Positions 29,149 to 49,709 of a stretch of 64,000 nucleotides of DNA are shown piece after piece. A model generated the notes under the pieces. The model ran no database searches. It was not told the DNA's origin and saw only the letters and a program-made list of their open reading frames with translations. Position 1 is the stretch's first letter; every line of letters begins with the position of its first letter. Made by a program: the position numbers and the translations under genes. The DNA is from Chitinophaga pinensis (GTDB lineage: Bacteria > Pseudomonadota > Gammaproteobacteria > Burkholderiales > SG8-41), in NCBI GenBank assembly GCA_943329075.2, contig CALQCM020000006.1, forward strand, positions 62,001 to 126,000, written 5' to 3'.

Positions 29149-30525
29149 TTACCCGGGGCCGGCGTCGATCTGCGGCAATACCGCCGGCCAGTCGGCGACA
29201 ACCCGCTCGATATAGCGCCTGAGCCGCGCCGGATCGGCAACAACCGTTGCATACAATGCGAAAATTTCAGATGCGGGTTCAAGCGGTACGCGCAGCGCGT
29301 TGTAGATCAGATCCGCATTGCTGGTGATCGCACATAGCGCAGTCATCTCGACCACTTCAGCATCGCTAAAGTGTTTCTTCAGCTCGCTGAAAACCGCCTC
29401 GTCGCGCTTGGCGGTATTCGGCGCCACCAGCGCCGCCCACGCAATGGCGGCCCGCTCGCGAGGCGAAAATTCCGGTGCGGTCGCCGCATCGGTACGCTTC
29501 AACGCGACCAGTTGCGACTCGGAAAGGCCCGTGGCGCCTGCGAGCACGGTGTGATGCGCGATCATGTATTTCGCGCCGTGCAGGTGATGGGTCTTCAACA
29601 TTATCATCAGCCGCAGCGGTGCCGGCAGGATGCTGCCGGCACCATCGCGTTCAAATGCAAAGTAAAACGGCACAAACATCTTGGCGACATGCGGCGTGTG
29701 CGCCCAGACTTTCGCCGCATTGGTCGTGCCGCCGAGCAATGCACTGGCCGCCGTGATAAATCGCGCGCCATCGGCGCCCGTCGTGTTGGTATCGAGAACC
29801 GGCACGCGGCAGCCGCGCGTATCTCCGGCCGGCAACGCGGCGGGGCTTGCAACGGTCGTCAGCGCCGCCGCTTTTGGAAACTCGTCCGGCCAGTGTTCGA
29901 GAATGCGTTCGAGATAAGCCTTGAGTTTCGCCGGATCGGCGCGCACCGAGGTGCGAATCTTGTCGACCTCGTGCTGCTCTTCGATCGGCAAACGCATTGA
30001 ATCCTGAAACCGGTTCGACTGCCCGAAGAGGCCGCAAACCGCGGTCAGCTCGACAAATTCCGCATCGCTGAAATGCGCTTTGACTTCGGCTGCAATGTCG
30101 TCGCGGTCACGCGCGGTGTTTCTCGCCACATGTTCGGCCCACAGCACCGCAGCCCTTTCGCGCGGCGCAAAATGCGTCGAAGTGAGATAGTCATCTGAAC
30201 TGATCGCCGCGACCTGTTCATCGGTAATGCCGGACGCCAGACCTAGCGCCGTATTGTGGGCTATTCAGTAATTGCAGGTATTGACGTGACTGGTTTTGAG
30301 TATGGCCATTTCCTTGATACGACACGACAGTACGCCGCCGGCACCCTCGCGCTGCAGCACGGTACCGGCCGGCAACTGGAATTTGGCAATGTAGGGAATA
30401 TGGCCCCAGACACGTGTTGAATTCGGCACACGTCCGCGCATCTGCGCGCTGGCCTCAAAGAAACGAGCGGTCTCGCCGGTGGCGGTTTCAAGCTCAAGAA
30501 TCGGTGCCCTAACTTCGTAGACCAT
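29149..30525 (-). CDS. two-domain CMD/AhpD-like selenoprotein (in-frame UGA at 30265-30267)
   Basis: 458 residues if UGA codon 87 is read as selenocysteine; without it only an 86-residue stub and an orphan 332-residue frame remain, in the same phase. AAAGGAAAG precedes the ATG at 30525. Domain 1 (about 1-200) has VNTCNY-UGA-IAHN, where the AhpD family has C-x-x-C-x-x-H; the downstream sequence continues the fold without a break (APRERAAVLWAEHVARN). Domain 2 (about 210-458) repeats it but reads HGAKYMIAHH, so Cys and Sec are replaced by Ala318 and Met321. Only domain 1 can do thiol/selenol redox chemistry. A hairpin follows the UGA. The receptor gene ends 27 bp upstream and the amidohydrolase follows. 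Alternative: a pseudogene with one nonsense mutation, made unlikely by the same UGA in two relatives nearby. Confidence 0.85.
30233..30250 (-). promoter_or_regulatory. putative bacterial SECIS hairpin of the two-domain CMD gene
   Basis: Starting 15 nt after the UGA, GGCGCTA pairs with TGGCGTC (7 bp, two G-U) around the loop GGTC. The loop equals the GGUC of the E. coli fdhF SECIS as I remember it. G-U is 23-24 nt after the UGA. Confidence 0.75.
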
Positions 30526-30552
30526 GCGTGCTTTCCTTTACAGGTTGCGTTT

Positions 30553-31530
30553 TCAATCAATGCTGACGCGGGTCGTGCGAAAACTTTTTCTGAGTGATTC
30601 GAGATCGTTTTTCATGAATGCCGCAAATTCCTCCGGCTGATCGCCAACGACCACATAACCCAGGTCAGTCAGCCGCCGGTTGATTTCCGCATTGCCGATC
30701 GCCGCCAGCACCGCATTGCGCAACGTCGTCACAATGGCCTTCGGCGTTTTCAGCGGCAACACGATGCCGTACCAGTTGCCCGCCGCATAGTTCGGATAAC
30801 CCGCCTCGGCAATGGTCGGCACATTGGGTAGAAGCGGGCTGCGTTTCGCGGAAGTCAGCGCCAGCAGGCGCAGACTTCCATGCTGTATATGCGGCAGCGT
30901 CGAGGCAATCGGTCCGAACATCAATTGTGTTTCGCCCGTCAGCACTGCAGTCAATGCCTCACCGCCACCGCGGTAAGGCACGTGCAGCAGATCAACACCC
31001 GCCATTGCGGCGAACAATGCGCCGGCCGAATACGACGGCGCACCCGTGCCGGCAGAACCAAAGCTCACCGCGCCGGGTCGCGACTTGGCCAGTTTGACCA
31101 ATTCTGTAATCGATTTCGCCGGCAGCGACGGATGCGCAACGACTGCATTCGGCGCGTTCGCAATCTGGGTCACCGGCGTGAAATCACGCAACAAATCATA
31201 CGGCAGCTTGCTCGACAAAGCGGCGGCTACCGTATGCGTCGCACTCACCTGCAGAATTGTGTATCCGTCGGGCACCGCCTTCGCCACGTATTCAGAACCG
31301 ATTGTGCCCGAAGCACCGGTGCGGTTCTCCACCACCACCTGCTGACCGAGCGCCGCGGTCATGCCGCCACCGACCAGACGGCCGATCACATCGGCACCGC
31401 TACCCGCTGAGGTTGAAACGATAAACCGCAGTGGTTTAACCGGAAACGACTGCGCAATCGCAGCGCCGGCGTGCATAGTGATCAACGCAAAGATCGCCAA
31501 ACGCATTTTCCAAATTAATTCCGACACCAT
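30553..31530 (-). CDS. Bug/TctC periplasmic solute receptor 7
   Basis: 325 residues from 31530; an ATG at 31506 would give 317 and is also plausible. Leader ends AGAAIAQ before SFPVKPLRFIV. Motifs: STSAGSGADVIGRL, VPDGYTILQ, AHPSLPAKS, HVPYRGG, PTIAEAGYPNYA. First gene of the unit receptor, CMD selenoprotein, amidohydrolase. The 97-bp gap to the divergent CMD gene at 31628 should hold both promoters. Confidence 0.92.
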   Translation of the reverse strand: MVSELIWKMRLAIFALITMHAGAAIAQSFPVKPLRFIVSTSAGSGADVIGRLVGGGMTAALGQQVVVENRTGASGTIGSEYVAKAVPDGYTILQVSATHTVAAALSSKLPYDLLRDFTPVTQIANAPNAVVAHPSLPAKSITELVKLAKSRPGAVSFGSAGTGAPSYSAGALFAAMAGVDLLHVPYRGGGEALTAVLTGETQLMFGPIASTLPHIQHGSLRLLALTSAKRSPLLPNVPTIAEAGYPNYAAGNWYGIVLPLKTPKAIVTTLRNAVLAAIGNAEINRRLTDLGYVVVGDQPEEFAAFMKNDLESLRKSFRTTRVSID

Positions 31531-31627
31531 GCCGTAGATCCCAGTTGATTTTTGAATCACATTTGCAACGCGCTACGTTAACATATCCACTACACCGCCA
31601 CGACACCACTTTCAGGAAGGACAAACG

Positions 31628-32260
31628 ATGACGCAACGACTGCACGGCATTACCGACAACGAAGCCACCGGCATGGCCAAAGAGGTCATCGACTCCTGCG
31701 CTGCACTTTTGGGACGCGTCGCCAATCTCCAGCGCATCCTGAATCACAGTCCTGAACTGGCAAAATGGGTACTCGGTCTCGTCGTGGCGGTGCGTCAACC
31801 CGCCGCGGGTGCCGTATCGGATGTCCGCTTGCGCAATCTCGCTACGTTGAAAACATCAACGCTCAACGGTTGCCAATATTGAACAGAACACAATCGGGTG
31901 CTTGGTCAAGCACTGGGACTCACCGATGCCGAGTTTGACGCACTGCAGGGCGATTACCGGCAAAGCGCTCTCTTCAACGAACGCGAAAAAGCCGTACTCG
32001 CATGGGCCGAGGCGATGACGCTGAACACGGCCAAACAAAGCGGCAAACATTGGGACGACCTGCGGCGCCTGTTCAGCGATGCCGAAATCGTGGAAATTTC
32101 GCTGATCACGGGACTCTTCAACATGATCAACCGGCTCAACGATTCGTTCCGCACCGAACTCGAACCCGCCGAGGTCAACCGCCGCCAGGGCGGCGCCCTC
32201 GGTGTCTCACTGTCGGCGCTCAACGAATACGGCTGCCGGGTCTGCGCGGCCCGCACCTGA
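31628..32260 (+). CDS. CMD/AhpD-like selenoprotein (in-frame UGA at 31880-31882)
   Basis: 210 residues with UGA codon 85 as selenocysteine. AGGAAGG precedes the ATG. The motif is LNGCQY-UGA-TEHN, aligned exactly with the relatives at 29149 and 34038: C-x-Y-Sec-x-x-H-N. After the UGA the same frame gives VLGQALGLTDAEFDALQ, then EREKAVLAWAEAMTLNTA and a typical C-terminal helix pair (VEISLITGLFNMINRLND). Family members reduce peroxides or disulfides through the CxxC pair; Sec at the second position would raise reactivity. It is divergent from receptor 7 and converges with the selenoprotein-B-like gene, 10 bp apart. Confidence 0.87.
31897..31914 (+). promoter_or_regulatory. putative bacterial SECIS hairpin of the CMD gene at 31628
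   Basis: GGTGCTT pairs with AAGCACT (six Watson-Crick pairs plus one G-U) around loop GGTC, starting 15 nt after the UGA. Loop sequence and distance are identical to those at 30233. Confidence 0.82.
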
Positions 32261-32270
32261 TCCGGAATCG

Positions 32271-33476
32271 TCAGGCGGTTTCGAGCAACACGCCGCGCGG
32301 CACCAGCGACGTCGCCTGCAGTTTTTGCAGCGAGGCGTCGCTGCTGGCGACGCAGATTTTATACAGGGCCAGAAACGCCTGACCGCAAGCAGTGTCGCGC
32401 CAGAACCAGTTCTGGATCGCATCAGCGTTTGGCGTGCCTGGCCGCGCCGCAGCTGCCTCGTAGTAGTAGTTACGCAGATCCTCGCAGACGAGCTTGACCG
32501 TTTCGCCGGTGTTGAGTCCGTCGATCGAGGTGATCGTCTGATCGCGCAGAAACTGCGCCAGCGCCAGCGCCGCTGCCACTGGCGACAACTTGCTCAAGCC
32601 GACCATGCTGTGGCCACGCCGCTCGCGCGCGCGATCGTGCCAGGGCTGCAACGCTTCAACTTCGCGCACCAGCACCGCATCAGGACTACTGTCGGCCGCC
32701 TGCGCAAAACTGACCGGACAGGCAACACCCTGCGCCTCGTCATCCGACGCGGGTGCGTCTTCCGGATAGTCGGCGAGCACCGGACCTGACGGCGCTTCGA
32801 GCAGCCTTAACGCCGCCGTCAACACCCGCGCCTGAAATGCCGCGTCGTTCGGCACACCGAACGGACGACCGAGCATGAACGAGACCCACAACGCGCGCGG
32901 CGGATTGATCGCCATGGTGTGCTCGCGAATCAGCGAGATCTGCGTGGTGGCGACCCCCGCCGCTTCGATGAACTGCCCGAGTGCGCCGACGGCGCACGTG
33001 CAGTTTGGTCATATCGGTGTCAGCAATACCGCATCGACGCGGTCGTCCTTCAATAATTGCGCAAGTTCCTTCGCTTTTGTTTCAAGCTGGCGGATCTGCG
33101 TGGCACCCATGAACGAATAATGGAAATCGGCTACCGCACCGACGACGCCCTGTTTCGCCAGTTCGTTCAGACGGTCGAGCGGAAAGGCAACGTTGTGATC
33201 TTCCTGAAAACCGGTGCGGTCGAAATTCACCGATTGATGGCTCATCACCAGATCGGTGGCCTTCGTATCGCCCGGGATAATCCGGTAATCCGTAGCGCCT
33301 GGTCCGAATGGACGGTCGCCTTTGCGATGCACGCCGGCGGTCGTGACAATTGCAATCCGGCATTGCGCCAGCGGCGGCGGCTTCACCCATGGCCGCGCAT
33401 CCCAGCCGGTCAGCTCCTTCAGTTTGTCGAGCTTGTTCTTGCGGTCCCACTCCGGCAGATCGGCCAAACGCACCAT
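32271..33476 (-). CDS. glycine/betaine/sarcosine/D-proline reductase selenoprotein B-like (in-frame UGA at 33009-33011)
   Basis: 401 residues with UGA codon 156 as selenocysteine. The N-terminal part matches proteobacterial selenoprotein-B-like proteins (MVRLADLPEW, VTTAGVHRKGDRPFG, VMSHQSVNFDRTGFQED, ADFHYSFMGAT, VDAVLLTPI). The frame continues after the UGA with PNCTCAVGALGQFIEAAG and TTQISLIREHTMAINPPRAL, giving a U-x-x-C redox pair as in GrdB/PrdB. In clostridia these enzymes cleave C-N bonds with thioredoxin or a cofactor as reductant; the aerobic proteobacterial versions have no established substrate. The C-terminal ~190 residues extend past the reductase core. No GrdA, GrdC or PrdA partner is nearby. 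GAGGGAAGA precedes the ATG. Confidence 0.87.
32981..32997 (-). promoter_or_regulatory. putative bacterial SECIS hairpin of the selenoprotein-B-like gene
   Basis: GTGCGCC pairs with GGCGCAC, 7 bp without mismatch, loop GTC (or 6 bp with loop CGTCG), starting 12 nt after the UGA. G-U is 19-20 nt after the UGA. Confidence 0.82.
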
Positions 33477-33551
33477 AGGTCTTCCCTCGATTTGAGTCTG
33501 ATAATATCAGTAGTCGTCGGCACCCATTTGAACATTACGGAAAGATTATTT

Positions 33552-33962
33552 ATGTCATCCGCCCCTGTCACCGGCAGTTGTCTGTGCGGCTCGGTTAAAT
33601 TCGAAGCGACCGCGCCCTTCGCAGCGTTTCGTTACTGCCATTGCAGCCGCTGCCGCAAAGCCAGCGGCAGTGCACATGCGGCCAACCTCTTCGTTCCCGA
33701 AACGCAATTCAAATGGACCGCCGGCGAATCGCTGTTGAAGCGTTTCCCGCATCCACAGTCCGAACGTTTTGCGGTGTCGTTCTGTACGAATTGCGGCACC
33801 CGCATGCCGCACAAGGTCAACACCACCGACAACATGCTGATTCCCGCCGGCGTGCTCGACGCTGACCCGGAAACGCGGCCGACCAACAGCATTTTCTGGA
33901 AATCAAAATCGGCGTGGTATATTTCGCCGCACGAATTGCCAAAATTCGGCGACTACAAGTAA
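33552..33962 (+). CDS. GFA (glutathione-dependent formaldehyde-activating-like) zinc protein
   Basis: 136 residues; GGAAAG sits 7 nt before the ATG. The GFA zinc-binding cysteines are in SCLCGSVKFEA, YCHCSRCRKASGSA and FCTNCGTRMPH. The family includes Gfa, which was proposed to help form S-hydroxymethylglutathione, but many members bind other thiols. It heads a plus-strand run with the CMD selenoprotein (76 bp later), acyl-CoA dehydrogenase, Gfo/Idh dehydrogenase and receptor 8. A decayed paralogue is at 44549. Confidence 0.9.
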   Translation: MSSAPVTGSCLCGSVKFEATAPFAAFRYCHCSRCRKASGSAHAANLFVPETQFKWTAGESLLKRFPHPQSERFAVSFCTNCGTRMPHKVNTTDNMLIPAGVLDADPETRPTNSIFWKSKSAWYISPHELPKFGDYK

Positions 33963-34037
33963 GCCGCCGGCTTTTTCGACATCCCCCATCTAAAAAATAT
34001 GCGCCGCCGCACGGTGCAACACTACCAGGAGAACATC

Positions 34038-34664
34038 ATGGCGAGACTGCCTTTTGTCGAAGACAACACTGAATCAAAGGAAGTGCGCGCGGCCTTCGAA
34101 GCTGCGCGTCGTTTCAACGGCCGCGTGGCCAACTCGATGCGCCTCTACGCGCATTCGCCGGCCATCCTTAAGTTCTTGTTGCCCTTGCAAGCCGTGCTGC
34201 AGAAGGACGGCCTCGGCTGCAAGATCGACGCGAAAACGCGTGCGCTGGCCATGATCAAGGTCTCGGCGCTCAACGAATGCAAGTATTGAATTAAGCACAA
34301 TCGCCTGGTTGGGCGAACGGCAGGCTGGAGCGAAGAGCAACTCGAAACCCTGAGCGGCGACGATTACTTGAACAGCGATCTGTTCGGCGAGCGTGAAAAA
34401 GCGGTTATCCGCTGGGCCGAACTGGTCACCTGGAACAAGGCGCGCTACGACGGCGAGGCATTCAAAAAACTGGCCGCACATTTCGACAGCACCGAGATAG
34501 TCGAACTCACCACCGTCGCTGCATTTCGCGGCCTGATGAACCGCTTTATCGACTCGCTGCAGATCGAACTCGAAGGCCCGGAACTGCAGGCCGCCGGCGG
34601 ACGCGCGGCGGCGAGTCAGGAAGACCTGCACGCCTATATCGAAGAACTGGTTAATCTGCGCTAG
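34038..34664 (+). CDS. CMD/AhpD-like selenoprotein (in-frame UGA at 34287-34289)
   Basis: 208 residues with UGA codon 84 as selenocysteine; AGGAGA precedes the ATG at 34038. The site reads LNECKY-UGA-IKHN. The frame then continues with RLVGRTAGWSEEQLETLSGD, EREKAVIRWAELVTWNKA and VELTTVAAFRGLMNRFID, collinear with the CMD gene at 31628, so the UGA lies inside one domain. The preceding segment ALAMIKVSALNEC is the usual helix leading to the AhpD CxxC. It is second in the GFA-led plus-strand unit. Confidence 0.87.
34301..34316 (+). promoter_or_regulatory. putative bacterial SECIS hairpin of the CMD gene at 34038
   Basis: TCGCCT pairs with GGGCGA (6 bp, one G-U) around loop GGTT, starting 12 nt after the UGA. 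G-U is 19-20 nt after the UGA. Confidence 0.75.
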
Positions 34665-34768
34665 CAGGGTTTGTTCGCCGCAGGCGGATCCGGACCAAGA
34701 CGTAACTGCCCGGACCTTGCCGGACCCGGCAGAAAAAATAAAAAAAACCCGGCGAGCACGGAGGTGTC

Positions 34769-35977
34769 ATGGATTTCGAGTTAAACGCGGAGCAACTGCG
34801 CTGGCGCGGCATCGCGCGCGATTTCACCGAGACGGTGATCAAGCCGGACGTGCTGCGGCGCGACCGCCTGCCGACTGCGGCCGAACGCATCCCCTGGGAC
34901 TGGATACGTGCCGCCGACAAACTCGGCATGCGCACGCTCGGCGTGCCGAAACAATTCGGCGGCGCCGGCGCCGATATCATGACCATGTGCATCGTCGGCG
35001 AGGAGCTTGCCGCCGGTGACCTTGGCTTCGCCGTGATCATGGACCAGTGCTGGAAGATGGCGCATATCCTCGCCGACGCGATGACGCCGGCGCAGCAGCA
35101 GAAGTTCATCCCGCCGTTCGTCGCCGATGCCGAAGCGACGATGTCGATCGGCTTCACCGAACCGGGCGCCGGCTCCGACCATCAGGGTTATTACGACGCG
35201 CCCGAGATCGATTTTCGCACCACCGCCGTGCGCGACGGCGACGGCTACCTCATCAACGGATCGAAGCGATACGTCTCCAACGGCTGCATGGCGAAACTTT
35301 ATTTCATCGTCACGCGTACCGATCCGTCGAAATCGCTGCGCGAAGGTGGCAGCATATTCGTCGTGCCGTCCGACACGCCGGGTTTCCGCACCGGCCACTT
35401 CCACGAAAAAAGCAGCCAGCGGCTGGCCACCAACGGCACGTTTTATCTGGAGAACTGCCACGTGCCGGCGGAGAACCTGCTGGTCGGCGAGGGCCTGATG
35501 GCGCGGTTGCGCGCCGAGTTCATGTGGGGCAGCAAGGCCGAGGCGGCAGCGACCGTGCTCGGCGTCGGCCGCGCCGCCTATGAGTACGCGCTGCAACACG
35601 CGCGCGCCCGCGTGCAGGGCGGCAAGCCGATCATCAAACACCAGGCCATCGCCATGATGCTCGCACAGATGGCGATGCGGCTCGACGCCGCGCGCACGCA
35701 GATCTGGCGCACCGCCTGGCTGGCCGACCGCAGACGGCCGGAGGCACGCACGCTTGGCCTCTTGGCCAAGGTCAATGCCTCGGAAACCGCCTTCGAGGTC
35801 TGCAGACAGGCCTGCGAAATTCTCGGCGGTGGTGGCATCATGCACGAACATCCTGTTGAAAAATATCTGCGCGACGCGGCGAGCTTTCTGCATTCCGACG
35901 GCACCAACCAGGTCTGCCTGCTGCGCGCCGCCGAAGGGCTGGCGAATCCGGCGTCGGCGGACCTCTACGGGTTTTGA
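34769..35977 (+). CDS. acyl-CoA dehydrogenase family protein
   Basis: 402 residues with CGGAGGT before the ATG. The fold is shown by the N-terminal MDFELNAEQLRWRGIARDF, the FAD-loop region SIGFTEPGAGSDHQG, DGYLINGSKRYVSNG and the C-terminal GGGGIMHEHPVEKYLRDA. The flavoenzyme introduces a double bond into an acyl-CoA in the cytoplasm. It follows the CMD selenoprotein by 104 bp and precedes the Gfo/Idh gene by 45 bp. Confidence 0.93.
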   Translation: MDFELNAEQLRWRGIARDFTETVIKPDVLRRDRLPTAAERIPWDWIRAADKLGMRTLGVPKQFGGAGADIMTMCIVGEELAAGDLGFAVIMDQCWKMAHILADAMTPAQQQKFIPPFVADAEATMSIGFTEPGAGSDHQGYYDAPEIDFRTTAVRDGDGYLINGSKRYVSNGCMAKLYFIVTRTDPSKSLREGGSIFVVPSDTPGFRTGHFHEKSSQRLATNGTFYLENCHVPAENLLVGEGLMARLRAEFMWGSKAEAAATVLGVGRAAYEYALQHARARVQGGKPIIKHQAIAMMLAQMAMRLDAARTQIWRTAWLADRRRPEARTLGLLAKVNASETAFEVCRQACEILGGGGIMHEHPVEKYLRDAASFLHSDGTNQVCLLRAAEGLANPASADLYGF

Positions 35978-36022
35978 AGCAGCTATTTACTACGTCGATC
36001 ATGACGTGAAGAGGGGACTGAT

Positions 36023-37105
36023 ATGAAGCGCAAGGAACTCGGTGTAGCGGTCATCGGCGCCGGCCGCATCGGCACGCTGCGCGCGCGGCTGGCAGCGCGG
36101 CACCCGGCGGTCGGCTTTCTGGCCATCGCCGATATCAATGCGGACGCCGCGCGCACGCTGGCCGAACGCACGGACGCCGACTTTCATTCGACCGACAACA
36201 ACGCCGCAATCGAGCACCCGGCGGTCAACGCCGTGATCGTCTCGACGCCCGAACATGAACACGTCGCACCGGTCTGCCGTGCGCTCGAACTCGGCAAACC
36301 GGTATTGATGGAGAAGCCGCTTGGTCTCACGCTGGCCGACGCCGATCAGATCCTCGACACCGTAAAAAAAACCAACGGCCATCTGCGCATCGGTTACATC
36401 CGCCGCTTCAAGCGCTGTTTCGCCCGCGCCAAACAGCAGGTACTTGACGGCCACCTTGGCAAAATCGCCGGCGGCACCGCGCGCGTCTACAACACCCGCG
36501 CGCAGGCTTTCGAGATACTGAAGCGCAATCCGGAGGCGACGCCGGTGATCGACGTGCTGACCTATTTCGTTGATCTGATGCTGTGGTTTAACGCAGGCAA
36601 TCCGCCGGTCGAAGTGGTGGCGCGCTCGCAGACCGGCGTGTTCAAAAAGGCCGGCTACAAGGTCGACGACCTGACATGGGCGATCGTGACCCTCGCCGAT
36701 GGCGCCATCATCAATCTGGGCATCAGTTACGCGCTGCCGTCCAACTACCCGATCCTCGGCCAGTCGGACCGCGTTGAACTGCTGGGAGAAGACGGCACCA
36801 TGATCATCGACGACGATCACCGCGACCATCAGCTGTATTCGGAAAAAGGCAGCGGCCACGCCTACGTGCCGGGCCACAAGATCAATTTTGCGTTCAGCGG
36901 CAGCAACCCCTCGGGCGACTGGGCACTCGGTGATTACTGGGGGCCACTTGGCAATGAAACACGCTCGTGGCTGGACCATCTGGTCACCGGCAATCCGACC
37001 GCGCATGCGACGCCCGCTGAGGCGCGTCTGGTGCTCGAAACCACCGTTGCAATCGAACGCGCAGCCGCCAGCGGCGAGCGCGTGCGACTGCCGCTCGAAA
37101 CATGA
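36023..37105 (+). CDS. Gfo/Idh/MocA family dehydrogenase
   Basis: 360 residues. Rossmann motif AVIGAGRIGTLRARL, then the EKP signature in VLMEKPLGLTLADA and the C-terminal alpha/beta domain with RFKRCFARAKQQVLDG and VIDVLTYFVDLMLWF. Members are NAD(P)-dependent polyol or inositol-type dehydrogenases. Its stop overlaps the start of receptor 8 by 4 bp, so uptake and oxidation are probably linked. Confidence 0.92.
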   Translation: MKRKELGVAVIGAGRIGTLRARLAARHPAVGFLAIADINADAARTLAERTDADFHSTDNNAAIEHPAVNAVIVSTPEHEHVAPVCRALELGKPVLMEKPLGLTLADADQILDTVKKTNGHLRIGYIRRFKRCFARAKQQVLDGHLGKIAGGTARVYNTRAQAFEILKRNPEATPVIDVLTYFVDLMLWFNAGNPPVEVVARSQTGVFKKAGYKVDDLTWAIVTLADGAIINLGISYALPSNYPILGQSDRVELLGEDGTMIIDDDHRDHQLYSEKGSGHAYVPGHKINFAFSGSNPSGDWALGDYWGPLGNETRSWLDHLVTGNPTAHATPAEARLVLETTVAIERAAASGERVRLPLET

Positions 37106-41278: not shown

Positions 41279-41839
41279 ATGACAGCACCGTTGAACAATC
41301 AGGACTTGTCCGACAAACCCGGCGAACGCATCATCGACAAGCCGGAACTGCCGGCGGCAGGCGTGACCAACGAAAACGACCTGCTTACTGAAACGGTAAG
41401 CGGACAGATGCAGCTGAAGTACAGCCGCACTGGCAAGTTCGAGGTGTGGTGCGACGAACCGGCGCGCATCGGCGGCACCGACCAGCATCCTTCGCCGATG
41501 ACCTATCTGGCGATGTCGATTGGATTCTGACTGCTGACACAAGTTGCGCGGTACGCGCACATGATGAAAATGAAGGTCAGCAATCCGAAATGCCGGGTGG
41601 TGATGAGAAAACACCTTGGTGGCTCGGTAATTAAGGGCACCGTTTTCAACAAATGGGAAAGCATTGCAACCCATCTCACCGTTGAAAGTGAAGAGCCTGC
41701 GGACAAACTCGCGCATCTGATCAAAAATGCCAAGGCCGGCTGTTTTGCGGAAGGCTTGATTACCCAGCAGGTTCCACTGGAGAGCCACATCGAAGTGAAT
41801 GGCAAGCCCTTTCACATCGAAGGCGTTACGAAAAATTAA
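41279..41839 (+). CDS. OsmC-like selenoprotein (in-frame UGA at 41528-41530)
   Basis: 186 residues with UGA codon 84 as selenocysteine; GGGAGG lies 6 nt before the ATG at 41279. OsmC/Ohr features: GKFEVWCDEPARIGG, then HPSPMTYLAMSIGF followed by the UGA, exactly where OsmC proteins have the peroxidatic Cys after the Leu-Ala-rich helix. The frame goes on with LLTQVARYAHMMKMKV. The second conserved Cys is present in NAKAGCFAEGLI (C155). OsmC/Ohr enzymes reduce organic hydroperoxides using dithiols. Without UGA read-through neither half would have the active site. Cytoplasmic, downstream of receptor 11. Confidence 0.85.
41545..41559 (+). promoter_or_regulatory. putative bacterial SECIS hairpin of the OsmC-like gene
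   Basis: TGCGCG pairs with CGCGCA around loop GTA (or 5 bp with loop GGTAC), starting 15 nt after the UGA. G-U is 21-22 nt after the UGA. Confidence 0.78.
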
Positions 41840-41857
41840 CCGCTGCGGCCGCGGGCG

Positions 41858-41895: not shown

Positions 41896-41913
41896 CCGCA
41901 CCGCCGGCCGCCT

Positions 41914-42336: not shown

Positions 42337-43299
42337 TCAATCGATTTTGAGCTTCGCGGCGGCTGCAAGCTTGGACCATCGTTCATAATCCGTGCGCACC
42401 AGCCGCTGCATGCCTTCGGCACTGCCGCCAGAGATAGTCATGCCCTGCTGATTGGCGTTGCGGATCATGTCCGCATTTTTCAGCACTTTGTTAAGCATCA
42501 CGTTAAGTCGCTCCACCACGGCGGGCGGCGTGCCCTTCGGTACGACGGCACCAAACCACGATGTGACGGCATAACCGGGAAGTGCATCCGCAATTGGCGG
42601 CACATTTGGCAGCTCGGGAATACGCTTCGGCGTGCTCACCCCGAGGATGCGCAGCTTGCCGCTTTCGGCGTGCTGCAACACGTTGACGAGTCCCGCCATG
42701 ATGATCGGCACGCGGCCTGAAAGCAGATCAGGCATGACGGCACCGCCGCTCTTATAGGGGATCGATACCAGCTTGATCTTTGCCATGTGCTCGAGAAGGA
42801 TCATGCCGAAATCCGTGATGCTGCCAACGCCGGGTTGCCCGTAGGTCAGTTCGCCCGGACGTGCACGGGCCAGCGCAATGAACTCCAGCGTCGTCTTTAC
42901 GGGCAGCGCCGGATGCACTGCCAGCACGAGCGGGTTATAGCCCAATTCGATCACGGGAACTATGTTGTTTACCGGATCGAAAGCCGGCTTGCTGATTGCA
43001 GCCGTGGTGAGCCAGCTGCTGGTGGAAATCATGATGGTGTAGCCGTCAGCCGGGGCCTTCACCAGAATTTCCGTGCCGACAAGGCCACCGGCGCCCGGCT
43101 TGTTGTCGATGACGAACGGTTGCCCCGTTTCCTTGCTCATTTCCTGTGAAACGAGACGCGCGGCGAGGTCGCTGCCGCCGCCGGGCGCAAAAGGCACGAT
43201 TACCCTGACGGCCTTAATCGGATATTGCTGTGCGCCTGCCGGCAGTGCTGCTGAGAAGAAGGCAACGCCTGCAAGCGTGATAAATACGTGCGTAATCAT
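42337..43299 (-). CDS. Bug/TctC periplasmic solute receptor 13
   Basis: 320 residues from the ATG at 43299, which has AGGAGAG just upstream. Leader MITHVFITLAGVAFFSAALP, cleavage after AGAQ. Motifs: RVIVPFAPGGGSD, APADGYTIMI, VHPALPVKT, SIPYKSGG, PPIADALPGYA. It starts 8 bp after the glutathione transferase stop, so they are co-transcribed. Confidence 0.93.
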   Translation of the reverse strand: MITHVFITLAGVAFFSAALPAGAQQYPIKAVRVIVPFAPGGGSDLAARLVSQEMSKETGQPFVIDNKPGAGGLVGTEILVKAPADGYTIMISTSSWLTTAAISKPAFDPVNNIVPVIELGYNPLVLAVHPALPVKTTLEFIALARARPGELTYGQPGVGSITDFGMILLEHMAKIKLVSIPYKSGGAVMPDLLSGRVPIIMAGLVNVLQHAESGKLRILGVSTPKRIPELPNVPPIADALPGYAVTSWFGAVVPKGTPPAVVERLNVMLNKVLKNADMIRNANQQGMTISGGSAEGMQRLVRTDYERWSKLAAAAKLKID

Positions 43300-43307
43300 T
43301 TGCTCTC

Positions 43308-44075
43308 CTAACACGGCAATGGTATTTCGAGCGGCCGGACGCTTTTGGCAGCTTCGGAGAGCCGCGATCCGGGGCCGTAGGTCTTACAGTAGGACAGACG
43401 CTCGCGGACCCGGTCCCACCAGGCGGTCACATGCGCGTAACGGCCCTGCCACATCGTGGCAAGCCCGAGGTCTTGCATGCGGTCAAGCGTCGGAATGACC
43501 AGGATGTCGGCGAGCGTGAACTGCGTGCCGAGCAGCCAGGGCCCGGACGCGAGCATCGACTCCATGCGGCTTAATGTCAGATTGAGTTCGTCCAGGGCGG
43601 CCGCGACATCGTCATTGGAAAATCCATGGGGGCCCATGCGGCGATAGAAGTGTTTGCGCAGCGGCCGCACATCGGCTTCGCGCCGGCGGAACGTTTCTTC
43701 ATCCATACCCTTGAAGCGCTGCGCAATGATCATGTGAAACGAGGGCACGCGTATCGCCATCGTCGGCACTTCCTCGGCAAAGCGCATCCATGCGCGCATG
43801 CGCGCACGTCCAACAGTGTCGGCGGGTGACAGCGACGCCCCGGGAAATGTCTCGTCGAGGTATTCGCAAATGACGCTAGAGTCCACTATGACGTCGCCGT
43901 TATGCACCAGAGTCGGCACCACACCGTTGGGATTGAGCTTGAGGTATTCAGGGGTAAGGTTTTGATTGGTCTTGTTGTCCACCCGGAGGTCTACAAATTC
44001 CAGCGACTTTTCTGCCAGGCACAGCCGGACTTTCTGACTACAAGTGGATGTGGGACGGTTGTACAACTGGAGCAT
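43308..44075 (-). CDS. glutathione S-transferase family protein
   Basis: 255 residues from the ATG at 44075 with GAGGAAG upstream; the frame to 44240 has no support. The thioredoxin-fold N-domain begins LQLYNRPTSTCSQKVRLCLA, with Ser/Cys in the catalytic loop, cis-Pro in NPNGVVPTLVHNG and VDSSVICEYLDETFPG. The C-terminal helical domain contains FTLADILVIPTLDRM. It conjugates or reduces with glutathione in the cytoplasm. It lies directly upstream of receptor 13. Confidence 0.92.
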   Translation of the reverse strand: MLQLYNRPTSTCSQKVRLCLAEKSLEFVDLRVDNKTNQNLTPEYLKLNPNGVVPTLVHNGDVIVDSSVICEYLDETFPGASLSPADTVGRARMRAWMRFAEEVPTMAIRVPSFHMIIAQRFKGMDEETFRRREADVRPLRKHFYRRMGPHGFSNDDVAAALDELNLTLSRMESMLASGPWLLGTQFTLADILVIPTLDRMQDLGLATMWQGRYAHVTAWWDRVRERLSYCKTYGPGSRLSEAAKSVRPLEIPLPC

Positions 44076-44548
44076 GTCAGCTTCCTCGTTCAGGATGCGC
44101 GTACGCAACCTGGATGTTGTATGCGCGGACCGGTGATTGTGCCGGAGCGACTCGAAATCGGAGAACGACGGAATATATATAAATTGCAGATCATATGCAC
44201 TATTTTTAATTTGGCCGGGTGGGGCGCACGGCCCCCTCAATACACTGATTAATTTGAGCGCGAGAGCTCGTCAAGAATTTAAAACCGGTGTGGGCTAAAA
44301 CGGAACTCACTTCGCAGAAGTGACAGTCGAGTTAATCCCCCCCGGCAGCTTAAATTACCGTTGCGGGCTTAACGTTGCTGCAGATATTGGCCATACTAAG
44401 CGGGGCGCTCAAACATATTGCACTTGTCTTGCTTTGCCAGTTCCTGATTACGGACAGTTGAGTTGCCAGGCTCATTGGGCGCGTAAACAGCGTAACTGAC
44501 GGACACACTTCTATGAGGTCGAGCATCGGGCTCGCGAGGCAAAGTACG
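44076..44548. other. 473-bp gap, no gene recognised
   Basis: Less GC-rich than its surroundings. The part next to the glutathione transferase (44165-44215) is AT-rich, with TATATATAAATT, and may hold its promoter. Short frames here resemble nothing I know. Confidence 0.5.
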
Positions 44549-44841
44549 GATTGCGGGCGGATGCCAAGCCAGCGGCGGCGCGCACGCAGCCAATCTGTTG
44601 GCCCCGGAAATGCAGTTCAAATGGCTGGCCGGCGAGGCGCTGCTCACGCGCGTCCAACATCGGGATGTCGGAACGGTTTGCGGTGTGGTTTTGTTCCAAC
44701 TGCGGTACGCGCATGCCATACAAGGTCAACACCACCGACGTCGATCCCGGCACGCAGCCGACCAGCAGCATTTTCTGGAAATCAAAATCAGCGTAGTATG
44801 TGTCGCCGCAGGACCTGCCACGACTCGACGAATACAAATGA
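44549..44841 (+). pseudogene. decayed GFA-family gene
   Basis: A damaged paralogue of the gene at 33552. One frame gives ASGGAHAANLLAPEMQFKW, against ASGSAHAANLFVPETQFKW in the intact copy. After a frameshift another frame gives SERFAVWFCSNCGTRMPYK and SIFWKSKSA, then a TAG where the intact gene has Trp, then YVSPQDLPRLDEYK. About ten residues are also missing after KVNTTD, and the first zinc cysteines are lost. Its final TGA overlaps the start of receptor 14. Confidence 0.85.
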
Positions 44842-45842
44842 TTACCCCCTACATGCGAACGTTTTCCTCTTTTTGGCGCCGCCTGCTGCGGTGTGTTTTG
44901 CCGACTGTCGCGGCGATCGCGTGTTTGTTCGTCGCAGACGCCAATGCACAAGCCTATCCATCGCGGCCGATCCGCGTGATGGTGCCCTTCTCGCCCGGCG
45001 GCGGCACCGATATCCTCGCGCGTATCATGTCGGTGAAAATGTCCGAAGCGCTCGGGCAGAACTACCTCATCGACAATCGTCCAGGCGCGAGCGGCCAGAT
45101 CGGCACTGAAATCGTCGCCCGCGCCGCGCCCGACGGTTACACGATTCTGCACGTTGATACCTCGCTGGTGAGCAATCCCAGCATTTATAAAAATATGCGC
45201 TACGACGCCGTCAAGGATTTCACGCCGATCTCTCTGCACGCCTCCGGCCCCGTCGTATTGATTGTGCATCCCTCGGCGCCCGCGAAAACCCTGCAGGAAC
45301 TGATCGCGCTCGCAAAAGCGCGCCCGGGCGAACTCAACATCGCCGGCGGCGATCACGGTGCAGCTACCGCGCTGGGCATGGAACTCTTCAAGAGCATCAC
45401 CCATCTCGAACTCGTGCACATTCCGTTCAAAGGCAGCGGTGCGGTCACCCCCGCCGTGCTGAGCGGGCAGGTGATGATGGGATTTGCCGGCCCCAGCTCG
45501 GCGAAACCGCTGGTCGCCGCCGGCCGTCTGCGCGCGCTGGCAATCACCGGGGGAAAACGCAGTATCGCCCTGCCCGAGGTGCCGACCTTCGAAGAATCCG
45601 GCGTCAAAGGCGTCGACGCCTGGACTTACTGGGGTGCCCTGGCGCCGGCCGGCACGCCGCGCAACATCATCAACACCCTGAATGCCGCCATGACCAAAGT
45701 GCTTGCCATGCCCGACATCCGGCAGCGGCTGGCCGATCTTACCTACGATCCGATCGGCGGCTCGCCGGAGGATTTCGCCGCCAACATCAAGAGCGAACTG
45801 GCGAAGTGGGCGCGCGTCACCCAGGGCAAGCACTATGATTGA
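44838..45842 (+). CDS. Bug/TctC periplasmic solute receptor 14
   Basis: 334 residues from 44838, or 329 from the ATG at 44853. Leader ends CLFVADANAQ before AYPSRPIRVMV. Motifs: VPFSPGGGTDIL, APDGYTILHV, VHPSAPAKT, HIPFKGSG, PTFEESGVKGVD. The start overlaps the end of the GFA remnant, and the stop overlaps the PanE-like gene by 8 bp. Confidence 0.92.
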   Translation: MITPYMRTFSSFWRRLLRCVLPTVAAIACLFVADANAQAYPSRPIRVMVPFSPGGGTDILARIMSVKMSEALGQNYLIDNRPGASGQIGTEIVARAAPDGYTILHVDTSLVSNPSIYKNMRYDAVKDFTPISLHASGPVVLIVHPSAPAKTLQELIALAKARPGELNIAGGDHGAATALGMELFKSITHLELVHIPFKGSGAVTPAVLSGQVMMGFAGPSSAKPLVAAGRLRALAITGGKRSIALPEVPTFEESGVKGVDAWTYWGALAPAGTPRNIINTLNAAMTKVLAMPDIRQRLADLTYDPIGGSPEDFAANIKSELAKWARVTQGKHYD

Positions 45843-46923
45843 TGGCGACACGTCGAACGTGGTCTTGGCGGCAGGCAAACGCATCGCCATTGTCGGCGCC
45901 GGTGCGGTCGGCTCCTATACCGGCGGCCGCATGGCGCTGGCCGGCGCCGACGTTACGCTAATCGATCCCTGGCCGGCACACATCGAAGCCATTCGCGCGC
46001 AGGGCCTGCAGTTGTCCGGCATGACGCCGGAAGAAAGCCATACGGTCAAGATCAAAGCCATGCACGTCGGCGACGTGCAGCAGATCGCGCGCGAGCAACC
46101 CATCGACATCGCGTTCATCTGCACCATCTCATACGACACTGAATGGGCGACGCAACTGATCCGCCAGTATCTGGCCCCCGACGGCGTGATCGTTTCACTG
46201 CAGAACGGCATCAATGAAGATGCCATTGCCGCGCACATCGGCGCCGACCGCGTGCTGGGCTGCATCGCCAGTCTGATTGCAGTAGAACTGCACGCCCCGG
46301 GTTGCGTGAAACGTCTGGTGCCGGCCGGCGGCGCACACCACACCGTGTTTCATGTCGGCGAGTTGGACGGCCGCATGTCGCCGCGCGCCGAAGCAATCGC
46401 CGCGCTATTGCGCGCCGTCGACAGCGCCACGGTAACCGCCAATCTGCGCGGCGAACGCTGGTCGAAACTCGTCGTCAATTCGATGCGCAACGGCTTGTCC
46501 GCAGTCACCGGCATGACCGGCAATCAGCGTGATCTCGACGCCACCGTGCGCTGGCTCGGCATCCGTCTCGGCAGCCAGGCGGTACGCGTCGGGCAGGCAC
46601 TGCGTCTCAATCTGTTCGCCGAACAAAACATGCAACCTGAAACGCTGGCCCGCGCCGGCGAAGGCGACATGGCAGCACGCGACGAAATCGAACAATTGCT
46701 GACCGCTTTTGCGCACAAGCGTTCGGACGACCAACGCCCGTCCACCGCGCACGACATCCTGCGCGGGCGGCGCACAGAAATCGACTACATCAATGGCTAT
46801 GTGGCAAACAAAGGCCGCGAAACGGGCGTCGATGCGTCACTGCATGTCGCGATTACGGAGCTCGTCAAAAAAATCGAGCGCGGCGAACTCAAGCCCGGTC
46901 CAGGACTGGTCGCGGGCTTGTAA
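45835..46923 (+). CDS. PanE/ApbA-like 2-dehydropantoate 2-reductase family protein
   Basis: 362 residues from the ATG at 45835, which overlaps the receptor stop by 8 bp, so translation is coupled. Rossmann motif IAIVGAGAVGSYTGGRMALA, VSLQNGINEDAIAAHIG and the C-terminal helical domain with GERWSKLVVNSMRNGLSAVT and the GRRTEIDYINGYVANKG signature all fit. It is longer than housekeeping PanE (about 300) and sits with a receptor, so it more likely reduces or oxidises an imported oxo/hydroxy acid than makes pantoate. Confidence 0.9.
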   Translation: MIDGDTSNVVLAAGKRIAIVGAGAVGSYTGGRMALAGADVTLIDPWPAHIEAIRAQGLQLSGMTPEESHTVKIKAMHVGDVQQIAREQPIDIAFICTISYDTEWATQLIRQYLAPDGVIVSLQNGINEDAIAAHIGADRVLGCIASLIAVELHAPGCVKRLVPAGGAHHTVFHVGELDGRMSPRAEAIAALLRAVDSATVTANLRGERWSKLVVNSMRNGLSAVTGMTGNQRDLDATVRWLGIRLGSQAVRVGQALRLNLFAEQNMQPETLARAGEGDMAARDEIEQLLTAFAHKRSDDQRPSTAHDILRGRRTEIDYINGYVANKGRETGVDASLHVAITELVKKIERGELKPGPGLVAGL

Positions 46924-46966
46924 CAAAGCACTGCTTCCGCGCGGAATCAATGTCCCGTTCAACGCA

Positions 46967-47935
46967 TCACTCGGCCTTGAGTCCGATGGTCTTGATCACC
47001 CGCCCCCACTTTGCGGTTTCATCGCGCATCTTCACGCCAAGTTGCTCGGGCGTGCTGGCGTCCGGATAAACGCCGATTGCACCGAACTTCGCAATCACGT
47101 CCGGATGCGCCATTGTCTTCACCAGCGATTGGTGCAAGGTTGCAATCACCGGCGCCGGTGTGCCCGCCGTGGTCAACAACCCGTACCACGACACGACGTC
47201 AAACCCGGGAATGGTTTCCGCAATCGCCGGTACTTCGGGCAGGATGGTCATACGCTCAGCACTGGTCACGGCGATCACGCGCACCTGTTTGTTCCTGATA
47301 AAACCGTGCGCGGCCGAAACACCAAAGATCACAGTGTCGATTTCACCCGAGATTATGCCGACCAGCGCCGGCGCCGAACCGCGGTACGGCACGTGAATCA
47401 GATTGACCTTGGCATTGAGCTTGAACAACTCCCACGCGAGGTGCCCGGTCGAACCCTGGCCCGATGAGCCGAAATTGATTCGGCCCGGGCGCGCTTTCGC
47501 CAGGGTGATCAACTCTTTCACCGACTTCACGGGCATCGACGGGTGCACCATCATTGCAAACGGCGACACGCCGACCATAGCCACCGGCGCCAGATCGCGA
47601 CTGACGTCGTAACCGAGCTTCAGCATGTTCGGCGCAATCGCCAGCGTGCCGCTGGCGGCGAAGAACAACGTGTAGCCATCGGCCGGCGCATGTGCAGCGA
47701 AATCGCCGCCGACACTGCCGCCGGCACCGGGGCGGTTGTCGATCACGACCTGTTGTCCCAGTTGTTCGCTGAGTCGCGTCGCAATGACGCGCGCCACCAC
47801 GTCGGACGATCCGCCGGCCGCCAGCGCGACGATCATGCGCATCGGACGGTTCGGATAATTTTGCGCGAACGCTGGTGCAACTGCGGCCGCTGCAAACACC
47901 ACCATCGAACACACACACGCAAGCCGGTTATTCAT
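46967..47935 (-). CDS. Bug/TctC periplasmic solute receptor 15
   Basis: 322 residues from the ATG at 47935; upstream extension to 48106 is repeat-derived. Leader MNNRLACVCSMVVFAAAAVA, cleavage after AFAQ. Motifs: RMIVALAAGGSSD, APADGYTLFF, VHPSMPVKS, HVPYRGSAP, PAIAETIPGFD. Same strand as the UGSC operon but separated from it by a repeat. Confidence 0.92.
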   Translation of the reverse strand: MNNRLACVCSMVVFAAAAVAPAFAQNYPNRPMRMIVALAAGGSSDVVARVIATRLSEQLGQQVVIDNRPGAGGSVGGDFAAHAPADGYTLFFAASGTLAIAPNMLKLGYDVSRDLAPVAMVGVSPFAMMVHPSMPVKSVKELITLAKARPGRINFGSSGQGSTGHLAWELFKLNAKVNLIHVPYRGSAPALVGIISGEIDTVIFGVSAAHGFIRNKQVRVIAVTSAERMTILPEVPAIAETIPGFDVVSWYGLLTTAGTPAPVIATLHQSLVKTMAHPDVIAKFGAIGVYPDASTPEQLGVKMRDETAKWGRVIKTIGLKAE

Positions 47936-47944
47936 GCCGCTTCG

Positions 47945-48030
47945 ACGCCCCCGCCAAAGCGGGAGCCCAGGATTTGGCTCGTCGATCGCATCAACACCAT
48001 ACTGGATTCCCGCTTGCGCGGGAATGACGG
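47945..48030. repeat. CCCGC/GCGGG palindromic repeat pair
   Basis: CCCCCGCCAAAGCGGGAGCC and TGGATTCCCGCTTGCGCGGG arms, same family as 7420. Confidence 0.85.
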
Positions 48031-48054
48031 TGTTATCGAATACACACAATCGCA

Positions 48055-49173
48055 TCAACCCCGCCCAAACTCTTCCACCGAGCGCGCCGGTTTCCCGTCG
48101 GCACATTTCAAGGCGCGGGTCACCGACAGCGTGGCACCGAAAGTTGGAATGAATGCCGAATGTTTGCCGGCCCCGCCGATCACCACCACAATCAGATCTT
48201 CCGGTCGCTGGATCATCGGCACCAGCGTTTCGGGACCGGCGTTTTCATACTTGCCGGGAAACCAGAAACGCAGCCGGCGCTCGATGTTCTCGCGCGAGAA
48301 TTTCTTCATCGGCAGATTGGCGTTGTCGACGATGAATTTTTTCACTGCCGCCTTGGTGAAACCGCCGTCAGCGATGGTCTTTGCATGCTCGATGCCGATC
48401 AGCACGACCGGCTCGCAGACATCGTGATAAACATCATTGACCCCGGCCACTCCCATCGAGCCGGCAATCGTCTGCAGCACGCCCTCGGCAGTGATGCTCT
48501 CGTGGTCGTTGATGTTATGCGGACACTCGGCACCGACGACCGTCACCGTGGTGTCGTCAATGTTGTAACCACGCTCGACATGCAGCGGTTCCCAGGGGCT
48601 GGCTGCTTCGTTTTCTGCTGCGCAATAGGTGTATTTTGCCGGCGAGCCATAGGTGCACATGTCGCCGACAGTCGGAAACGCGCCGCCGATGTTGACGAGC
48701 GCAAGCCGCACCGCGCGGCCGATGGTCGCATTGGCCTGCGCGCCGGGACCAAACGCATTGTGGCCGCTGTTGATGCCGACCTCACGTGCAATCGGCCCGT
48801 TGAAAATCATCAGTGGTGCGGCATTGTGGGTGGTCGCCTGCACGCCGTAGAGGTTGAAGCGCTTTTCGCACATGGCCTCGATCGCCAGCATGATCAGCGG
48901 AAAATAACGCGGCTCGGCGCCGGCCATCACCGCGCTCACTGCGATGCGCGCGGGCGTGGCCTCGCCGTAGCGCGGACCGACCTTGCAGATCGCCTCGTGC
49001 CACGGCCGGTCGCAATAGGTAAGCATTTTTTCGACCCGTGCCGCGGTCGGCGGCACGATCGGCAGGCCGTCGCTCCAGCCACGCTCGCGGAACAGGCGGT
49101 TGATCTCGTCGAAGTCGTCGGCGACCTCGATGGTGGCATTCGGCGCCTGCATGAATGTTTCAAGGCCGCTCAT
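48055..49173 (-). CDS. conserved protein of unknown function, coupled to the UGSC selenoprotein
   Basis: 372 residues; the ATG overlaps the UGSC stop by 4 bp. No signal peptide or membrane segment. Conserved-looking blocks are SDGLPIVPPTAARVEKML, YGEATPARIAVSAVMAGAEP, YGVQATTHNAAPLMIFNGPI, GINSGHNAFGPGAQANATIG and SYGSPAKYTYC-like Cys/His-rich stretches (VGDMCTYG, YCAAENEA, GAECPHN, YHDVCEP). Several Cys and His could bind metal or take part in thiol exchange. I recall similar proteins in environmental genomes without assigned function. Tight coupling suggests it works with the selenoprotein. Confidence 0.75.
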   Translation of the reverse strand: MSGLETFMQAPNATIEVADDFDEINRLFRERGWSDGLPIVPPTAARVEKMLTYCDRPWHEAICKVGPRYGEATPARIAVSAVMAGAEPRYFPLIMLAIEAMCEKRFNLYGVQATTHNAAPLMIFNGPIAREVGINSGHNAFGPGAQANATIGRAVRLALVNIGGAFPTVGDMCTYGSPAKYTYCAAENEAASPWEPLHVERGYNIDDTTVTVVGAECPHNINDHESITAEGVLQTIAGSMGVAGVNDVYHDVCEPVVLIGIEHAKTIADGGFTKAAVKKFIVDNANLPMKKFSRENIERRLRFWFPGKYENAGPETLVPMIQRPEDLIVVVIGGAGKHSAFIPTFGATLSVTRALKCADGKPARSVEEFGRG

Positions 49174-49709
49174 TTGAGTTGCTCCCGGATGACGGCAAGG
49201 ATCTGCGGAATAGCGATTTCGGCGCGCGCGCCGACCTGCTCGATCGACAGGCCGCCCAGCGGATGCGGAATCATGATCAGCGGCAGATCGGGCGTGCCGA
49301 ACACGCGCGATTGCGCGGTGCCGAGTTTCTTGAACGGTTCCGAACAGATGACGGCGGTGATCAATCCGCGTTTACGCAGTTCCGACATGTCGTGGACACT
49401 CCACGACGTGCAGGCCCCTCAATCGGCCATGGCGCCGACAACGCAGTCGGCCTCCGCGGCAAGCCGGTCGAGAATTTCTTTCGGCGCGCCCTCGCTCGGG
49501 CGCGACTTGCGCAAAGCAATCGCCGACGCGACAGGCAACGCCGCCTTCACCGCGTCAGTCACCATGGCCAGCAGAAAATTGGCATTGCCCTTGCCGTTAT
49601 CGAGCGTGCCGAAACGAATGCCCGCTTTGCCCAGCGCGCGGCCCTCGATCAGTGCTGCGGCGGTGGGCAGCGGCGCCTCCGGCACCAGCAGCGTAATTGT
49701 TCCCGTCAT
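49170..49709 (-). CDS. UGSC-family selenoprotein (in-frame UGA at 49419-49421)
   Basis: 179 residues with UGA codon 97 as selenocysteine. AAGGAG lies 6 nt before the ATG. The first part is a Rossmann-like or lipoamide-independent domain (ALIEGRALGKAGIRFGTLDN); then DCVVGAMAD-UGA-GACTSWSVHD gives Sec97-Gly-Ala-Cys100, the redox pair of the UGSC family, which occurs in Sec and Cys forms. The frame continues without damage: MSELRKRGLITAVICSEPFK and a Pro-rich end (TPDLPLIMIPHPLGGLSIEQ). Redox activity is inferred from the U-x-x-C pair; no substrate is known. In an operon after cysK and before the conserved unknown. Confidence 0.87.
49389..49407 (-). promoter_or_regulatory. putative bacterial SECIS hairpin of the UGSC gene
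   Basis: GTCGTGG pairs with CCACGAC, 7 bp with no mismatch, loop AGTGT, starting 12 nt after the UGA. G-U is 20-21 nt after the UGA. Confidence 0.82.

Follow-up and report, generated by a model that had tools for sequence, protein, structure and literature searches.

Six genes within 20.6 kb of one Burkholderiales contig are each interrupted by a single in-frame UGA, which raises the question of whether UGA is read as selenocysteine (Sec) in all of them and what such a collection of selenoproteins would do. The window analysed is the whole stretch of 64,000 nucleotides (contig CALQCM020000006.1, positions 62,001 to 126,000) from the source genome G000, a 4.97 Mb draft metagenome-assembled genome (MAG) of an uncultured Burkholderiales (86% complete, 167 contigs). 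An earlier note, made from the letters alone, had proposed that each UGA stands at the redox position of its protein family with the frame continuing behind it, and this was borne out by script, by a scan of codon usage and by the corresponding columns of homologues, all six read-through genes being recovered by script when UGA was read as Sec. On this sequence evidence the six are most probably functional selenoprotein genes with Sec inserted at the UGA (probability about 0.97), and the joint claim of Sec insertion together with a genome-wide expansion of one of the families, UGSC, is held almost as firmly. The predicted selenoprotein genes and their UGA sites are as follows (window positions).

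29149..30525, minus strand: CMDa, two-domain carboxymuconolactone decarboxylase (CMD)/AhpD-like gene, 458 amino acids, ATG at 30525, motif CNYU
30265..30267, minus strand: Sec-UGA of CMDa, hairpin 30233-30250, 7 bp, loop GGUC
31628..32260, plus strand: CMDb, CMD/AhpD-like gene, 210 amino acids, motif CQYU, itself terminated by UGA
31880..31882, plus strand: Sec-UGA of CMDb, hairpin 31897-31914, 7 bp, loop GGUC
32271..33476, minus strand: PrdB/GrdB-like gene, 401 amino acids, ATG at 33476, motif UPNCT, itself terminated by UGA
33009..33011, minus strand: Sec-UGA of the PrdB-like gene, hairpin 32981-32997, 7 bp, loop GUC
34038..34664, plus strand: CMDc, CMD/AhpD-like gene, 208 amino acids, motif CKYU
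34287..34289, plus strand: Sec-UGA of CMDc, hairpin 34301-34316, 6 bp, loop GGUU
41279..41839, plus strand: OsmC-like gene, 186 amino acids, motif GFULLT, NF041052 over cut-off
41528..41530, plus strand: Sec-UGA of the OsmC-like gene, hairpin 41545-41559, 6 bp, loop GUA
49170..49709, minus strand: UGSC gene, 179 amino acids, ATG at 49709, motif DUGAC, itself terminated by UGA
49419..49421, minus strand: Sec-UGA of the UGSC gene, hairpin 49389-49407, 8 bp, loop GUG

Probable selenocysteine at the in-frame UGA codons

Profile searches agreed with the four families named in the earlier note (CMD/AhpD in three copies, selenoprotein-B-like, OsmC-like and UGSC), the Pfam assignments being CMD, GRDB, OsmC and UGSC. 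The CMD proteins scored 59, 25.4 and 33.6 bits against PF02627 (gathering cut-off 23), with redox motifs CNYU, CQYU and CKYU, and the second CMD domain of CMDa has HGAKYM instead of a CxxC. The OsmC-like protein reached 162.2 bits against NF041052 (curated cut-off 95), which places it among OsmC-related (seleno)proteins, and the UGSC protein of the window 132.1 bits against PF24696 (cut-off 25), with the U-G-x-C motif present, while falling just under the NF041046 equivalog cut-off (116.5 versus 125 bits). The PrdB-like protein, which carries the motif UPNC and a helical extension at its C-terminal end, scored 42.7 bits against PF07355 (gathering cut-off 22; profile positions 223-345) and lay well under the cut-off of the PrdB equivalog TIGR04483 (114 versus 300 bits). 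A 2026 catalogue (PMC13188914) counts all four families among the selenoproteins, in keeping with the earlier note's remark that they were known individually.

At 6/6 sites a G(G)U loop was closed by a perfectly paired stem of 6-8 bp, and the hairpins fit a selenocysteine insertion sequence (SECIS)-like criterion by which a hairpin with a G in its apical loop follows the UGA at 16-37 nt; the hairpins with a G-U loop described in the earlier note thus stood, but not their distance of 19-24 nt, as the loop begins 17-21 nt past the UGA. Loose bacterial SECIS criteria (a loop of 3-9 nt and an energy under -7.5) proved uninformative and were abandoned, since 27-98% of synonymously recoded sequences also passed them. 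The strict rule that was used instead, a perfect stem-loop, was defined after the six hairpins had been viewed, so its support comes chiefly from other UGSC sites and from controls in which the same peptides were recoded synonymously with the genome's own codon usage. The mean hairpin score of the six sites was 6.5, against 1.3 for the recodings, and 0/2000 control sets equalled it. A strict hairpin was likewise found at 26/29 other UGSC sites of the source genome and at 29/29 UGSC sites of relatives, with 0/500 and 0/300 control sets matching, respectively, against a background in the window of 9.4% of all UGAs and 2/23 ordinary UGA stops. The UGSC stems vary among paralogues, with changes on both sides of the stem.

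A codon-usage scan covered 1.65 Mb of the source genome, sampled in stretches and amounting to one third of it, and found 79 of 46,803 UGAs to have coding sequence in one frame both before and after them. Among these 79, the strict hairpin was present at 24 of 26 known sites and at 4 of the 53 remaining, compared with 366 of 6,057 other open UGAs. The hairpin-bearing coding UGAs were the six of the window, UGSC copies, another OsmC gene and four probable gene ends. These four, outside the known families, were rejected as apparent gene ends with the next start in frame or as a terminator-like palindrome. Within the window the scan gave no further convincing Sec site beyond the six; the other candidate UGAs were mostly antisense to called genes and the rest intergenic or an ordinary gene end, and a possible seventh site, the UGA at 33509 (DDYU), was set aside as lying upstream of the ATG at 33476 with its good Shine-Dalgarno sequence. 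The scan is blind to Sec near either protein end, selD being missed for this reason, and with protein-end Sec invisible to it there were zero convincing Sec sites in 1.16 Mb of contigs picked regardless of UGSC and away from the window.

Homologues had Cys or Sec at the UGA column, the PrdB-like genes aligned Sec only. Every one of 59 extracted UGSC genes contained UGA and no other stop, always at one column, and UGA occupied the Sec column in 23/23 aligned PrdB-like genes. A UGSC copy of relative G021 reads FGDCGTS where its counterpart in the source genome reads YGDUGTS (62% identity over 529 amino acids), CMD genes beside PrdB-like genes occur as GCRYC and GCHYU forms, and two Sec and two Cys forms were found among OsmC homologues. 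Upstream of the start, a Shine-Dalgarno-like purine run was present in 6/6 genes, as the earlier note had stated.

The genes that Sec insertion would call for, selA, selB, tRNA-Sec and selD, are all in the source genome; with these and the Cys or Sec columns of homologues, neither of the two outcomes that the earlier note had named as refuting it came about. selB (432.6 bits) adjoins tRNA-Sec (75.5 bits) on contig 35, selA (602.7 bits) is on contig 7, and selD (416.4 bits), on contig 9, carries one UGA of its own and is therefore counted as a selenoprotein gene. tRNA-Sec is single per genome and, among 60 relatives, was present in 35/39 UGSC-positive versus 5/21 UGSC-negative genomes (Fisher p 4e-7). 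The four genomes that have UGSC but lack tRNA-Sec are listed as 80-91% complete. At the level of sequence, both the machinery and the signals for Sec insertion are in place: SelB with Sec-tRNA-Sec would bind the hairpin right after the UGA, and Sec would replace the redox Cys of the family.

The UGSC family and the wider selenoproteome

The source genome contains at least 37 selenoprotein genes, a lower bound from the families searched, made up of 30 UGSC, three CMD, one PrdB-like and two OsmC genes and selD. The family search listed two UGA-bearing CMD genes, both in the window, and missed CMDb. Five of the six selenoprotein genes other than UGSC and selD fall in the window, and at the genome's average density the Poisson probability of six selenoprotein genes in 20.6 kb is 1.6e-8. 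The clustering is therefore real, as the earlier note had it, whereas its view of the packing as new needs qualifying: the SAO and Tso operons (PMC13188914) likewise pack several different selenoprotein genes together, six in SAO, and the six-gene cluster, of individually known families, is not without precedent. Those operons involve other families and hosts, and the genes of the window's cluster lie on both strands along 20 kb and form no single operon. Its CMD and OsmC proteins match in motif and family the CxxU CMD/AhpD and OsmC (NF041052) selenoproteins of the 2026 catalogue, the difference here being three CMD copies in one island, two of them flanking the PrdB-like gene. The cluster is the visible tip of an unusually large selenoprotein repertoire, in which the genome-wide expansion of the little-studied UGSC family is more remarkable than the cluster itself.

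Each of the 30 UGSC genes of the source genome contains exactly one UGA, and their median pairwise identity is 24% (maximum 76%). In relative G004 (listed as 98% complete with 2% contamination) there were 58 UGSC matches, of which 51 had a single UGA and no other stop by hand count, alongside two PrdB-like genes and one GrdB homologue; ten of its UGSC copies were checked and shared at most 66% pairwise identity. UGSC was found in 35/35 same-family relatives searched, with 2-48 matches listed for each in a first pass. According to database records, the relatives are MAGs of Betaproteobacteria or Burkholderiales, with groundwater, lakes and permafrost among the sources; two environmental MAGs of the lineage, in records CAMDSO010000040.1 and CAMCYP010000003.1, are labelled Bordetella parapertussis, an evident misassignment. 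More distant UGSC genes were present in Rokubacteria/Methylomirabilota, Nitrospinota, SAR324 and Dehalococcoidia, and the viral contigs scanned yielded no UGSC or PrdB-like relative. Some G004 copies (on C307, C45 and C7) have an extra TAG or TAA and are probably duplicates in decay, suggesting that gene turnover continues.

UGSC was described in the 2008 Global Ocean Sampling (GOS) survey, including a fusion termed UGSC/Unknown_1 (PMC2398784). The present genes share with the family of PF24696/NF041046 and of that survey the U-G-x-C motif, Sec in nearly all members and fusion of UGSC to another conserved domain, and UGSC was prominent there in non-marine samples. In contrast to the survey, one genome here has 30 paralogues and a relative 51, with the partner mostly fused or translationally coupled and placed beside Bug receptors. 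No report of an expansion to 30-51 copies in a family of Betaproteobacteria turned up in the papers searched, a set that excluded a groundwater selenoproteome survey that may list it. The largest published bacterial selenoproteomes have 57 and 63 members, and the selenoprotein-rich bacteria described are mostly anaerobic Thermodesulfobacteriota, Synergistota and Clostridia (PMC13188914); a Burkholderiales genome with at least 37 selenoprotein genes, and a relative with 51 UGSC genes alone, are to be set against that published maximum of 57-63. Where a gene caller treats every UGA as a stop, such genes come out split or truncated, so that the metabolism involved is easy to overlook in metagenomes from groundwater, lakes and soil.

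Three explanations other than an expanded set of genuine selenoproteins were weighed. Decaying pseudogenes or sequencing errors might be suspected in a draft metagenome assembly, the more so with a truly degraded copy of a glutathione-dependent formaldehyde-activating (GFA) family gene close by; however, the interruptions are UGA only and at a single column across the 59 UGSC and 23 PrdB-like genes, coding usage carries on past the UGA, and the SECIS-like hairpins beat all synonymous controls, so that this explanation is already contradicted and very improbable. Reassignment of UGA to an amino acid (code 4 or 25), to which in-frame UGAs in long genes might point, is more improbable still and is likewise already contradicted, because UGA is in ordinary use as a stop: it ends 23 other called genes of the window as well as CMDb, the PrdB-like gene and the UGSC gene, in agreement with the earlier note, and coding UGAs were as rare in the scan as reported above, with a full Sec system in the genome. 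Several strains merged in assembly could have inflated the number of UGSC genes, the genomes being MAGs and merging having been warned of for the 63-selenoprotein genome (PMC13188914), but this is unlikely given the completeness and contamination listed for G004, the presence of UGSC in all 35 same-family relatives and the low identity among the ten G004 copies. For the source genome, the UGSC copies are not merged strains, since any two of them are at most 76% identical (median 24%) and the genome has just one tRNA-Sec. Some weight has to be allowed on the other side to three UGSC sites of the source genome that lack a hairpin by the strict rule, to the lack of any Cys form of the PrdB-like family among the 23 aligned genes, all of which have Sec, and to the draft state of an 86% complete genome in 167 contigs.

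Possible roles of the UGSC units and the PrdB-like protein

In the source genome, UGSC is fused to the partner domain in 13 of the 30 copies, and in about ten further copies the partner gene lies directly 3' of UGSC, frequently overlapping it at an ATGA. Neither Pfam nor NCBIfam gave a match for the partner domain; its conserved residues are DGLPxxPxT, MAG, NGP, GRxxR, AExE, W and K, with no universally conserved Cys, and for want of such a Cys a pyruvoyl/Cys role as in PrdA/GrdE is unsupported. The Cys copy of G021 (C18:335422-335925) is a natural Cys version of the fused UGSC-partner protein and, next to its Sec counterpart, lends itself directly to a comparison of Sec and Cys enzymes. In an AlphaFold model of a fused protein (predicted local distance difference test score, pLDDT, 86), the UGSC domain is predicted to be Rossmann/flavodoxin-like a/b with Sec placed where a helix begins behind a strand, unlike the thioredoxin-like fold suggested in PMC2398784. 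The best structural match of the UGSC half was 8s7v_H, from the methyl-coenzyme M reductase (MCR) activation complex (Z 11.3, root-mean-square deviation 2.9 A, 129 residues); the matches of this predicted domain are common Rossmann-like folds and are read as indicating the general fold only.

The PrdB-like protein shares with PrdB/GrdB (TIGR04483, PF07355) the UxxC(T) motif after a b-strand, a matching region of about 190 amino acids and Sec in all 23 aligned members, and differs in falling far below the PrdB cut-off, in its extra C-terminal helical domain and in adjoining CxxU CMD proteins. Its model gave no convincing match in the PDB (best VIA, Z 8.3), and a phmmer search returned chance matches only. 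A GRDB match was present in 49/74 family genomes, mostly of this PrdB-like type, while four family genomes (G003, G009, G085 and G004) carry GrdB homologues of full length, up to five per genome, in which a single stop at the Sec site is read through. A CMD gene lay within 1.5 kb at 6 of 25 PrdB-like loci of relatives; five of these CMD genes carry Sec (CKYU or GCHYU) and the sixth Cys (GCRYC). Since CMD adjoins the PrdB-like gene at these loci, the sequence context supports a real working pair.

GrdB and PrdB act on amino acids through a selenolate, and in Cloacibacillus the GrdB-type selenoenzymes are duplicated, some beside substrate-specific genes, with one set degrading fluoroacetate (PMC10838667). 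The farACEB operon and the Cloacibacillus GrdB set thus resemble the present case in having many paralogous selenoenzymes, some beside transporters and the like, and their selenolate is proposed to attack the substrate (PMC10838667), as in the model considered here; Cloacibacillus differs in being an anaerobic member of the Synergistota with eight grdB genes and true glycine-reductase components. By analogy, UGSC and its partner may make up a substrate-specific enzyme: the adjoining Bug receptors would capture small organic acids, and the enzyme's selenolate would attack or reduce them. The PrdB-like protein of the window would be a second substrate-specific selenol enzyme, and the CxxU CMD/AhpD and OsmC proteins might be its thiol/peroxide redox partners. 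This functional model is held with low confidence and draws on analogy with the GrdB/PrdB selenolate enzymes and the duplicated Cloacibacillus GrdB rather than on demonstrated homology. It is rather doubtful, if conceivable, that this Burkholderiales family runs organic-acid catabolism partly on selenium, through dozens of paralogous UGSC enzymes per genome, mostly with a partner domain and often placed beside a Bug receptor, which would amount to undescribed substrate-specific selenol chemistry, with some selenoproteomes exceeding any reported.

About as likely as this model is that the proteins are real selenoproteins whose island serves stress defence, CMD/AhpD, OsmC and UGSC acting against peroxides or reactive catabolic products, with the Bug and other catabolic neighbours as background. 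The folds of CMD/AhpD and OsmC are classical ones for thiol peroxidases, all three CMD proteins match the peroxidase-related family TIGR01926, although under its cut-off, and Bug/TctC receptors, in a very large expansion, make up 88 of 364 called genes (24%) in the 436 kb of the source genome sampled (the window and further stretches). Stress defence leaves unexplained, however, the 30-51 UGSC paralogues with their median identity of 24%, most of which come with a partner domain of their own and lie beside Bug genes more often than other genes do, and the relatives of PrdB/GrdB are substrate reductases, not peroxidases (PMC13188914). The nearest non-partner neighbour was a Bug gene at 14 of 18 sites (17 UGSC and one OsmC) compared with 84 of 207 other genes (p 0.003). 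For the catabolic region with Bug receptors invoked in the earlier note, the mere presence of these receptors is weak evidence at 24% of genes, although they are enriched beside UGSC. Two observations tell against substrate-specific selenol enzymes: Bug adjacency says little on the substrate because Bug genes are so frequent, and in a comparison of UGSC with GrdB/PrdB by hhalign the probability was 1.6% (P 0.03), albeit with U aligned to U and C to C. Taken with a PF09338 match in one UGSC copy at E 0.31, a relationship of UGSC to GrdB/PrdB is only suggestive, the signal of homology being weak. Duplication of UGSC beside uptake receptors would make the function of UGSC testable, the adjoining receptor hinting at the substrate.

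Neighbouring genes and minor features

The other genes considered around the six are the following.

30553..31527, minus strand: Bug/TctC-type receptor gene
33498..33962, plus strand: GFA family gene, an ordinary Cys protein, likely start 33546
34769..35977, plus strand: acyl-CoA dehydrogenase gene after CMDc, present in relative G006 as well
36023..37105, plus strand: Gfo/Idh/MocA-type oxidoreductase gene
48055..49173, minus strand: UGSC partner gene, 372 amino acids, its start overlapping the UGSC stop (ATGA)

Relative G006 keeps the block of CMDb, the PrdB-like gene, GFA, CMDc and acyl-CoA dehydrogenase. Its GFA copy, between the PrdB-like gene and CMDc, has an internal stop, which replaces a Lys and so represents damage; the idea that GFA might have a Sec form was rejected on this ground. 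A copy of the window's GFA gene (33498-33962) lies at 44396-44890, immediately before a Bug receptor gene, and is degraded, with a broken frame. Short repeats resembling repetitive extragenic palindromic (REP) elements lie beside Bug genes at about 48010-48090 and about 7400 of the window and translate as VIPAQAGIQ / SFPRKRESS.

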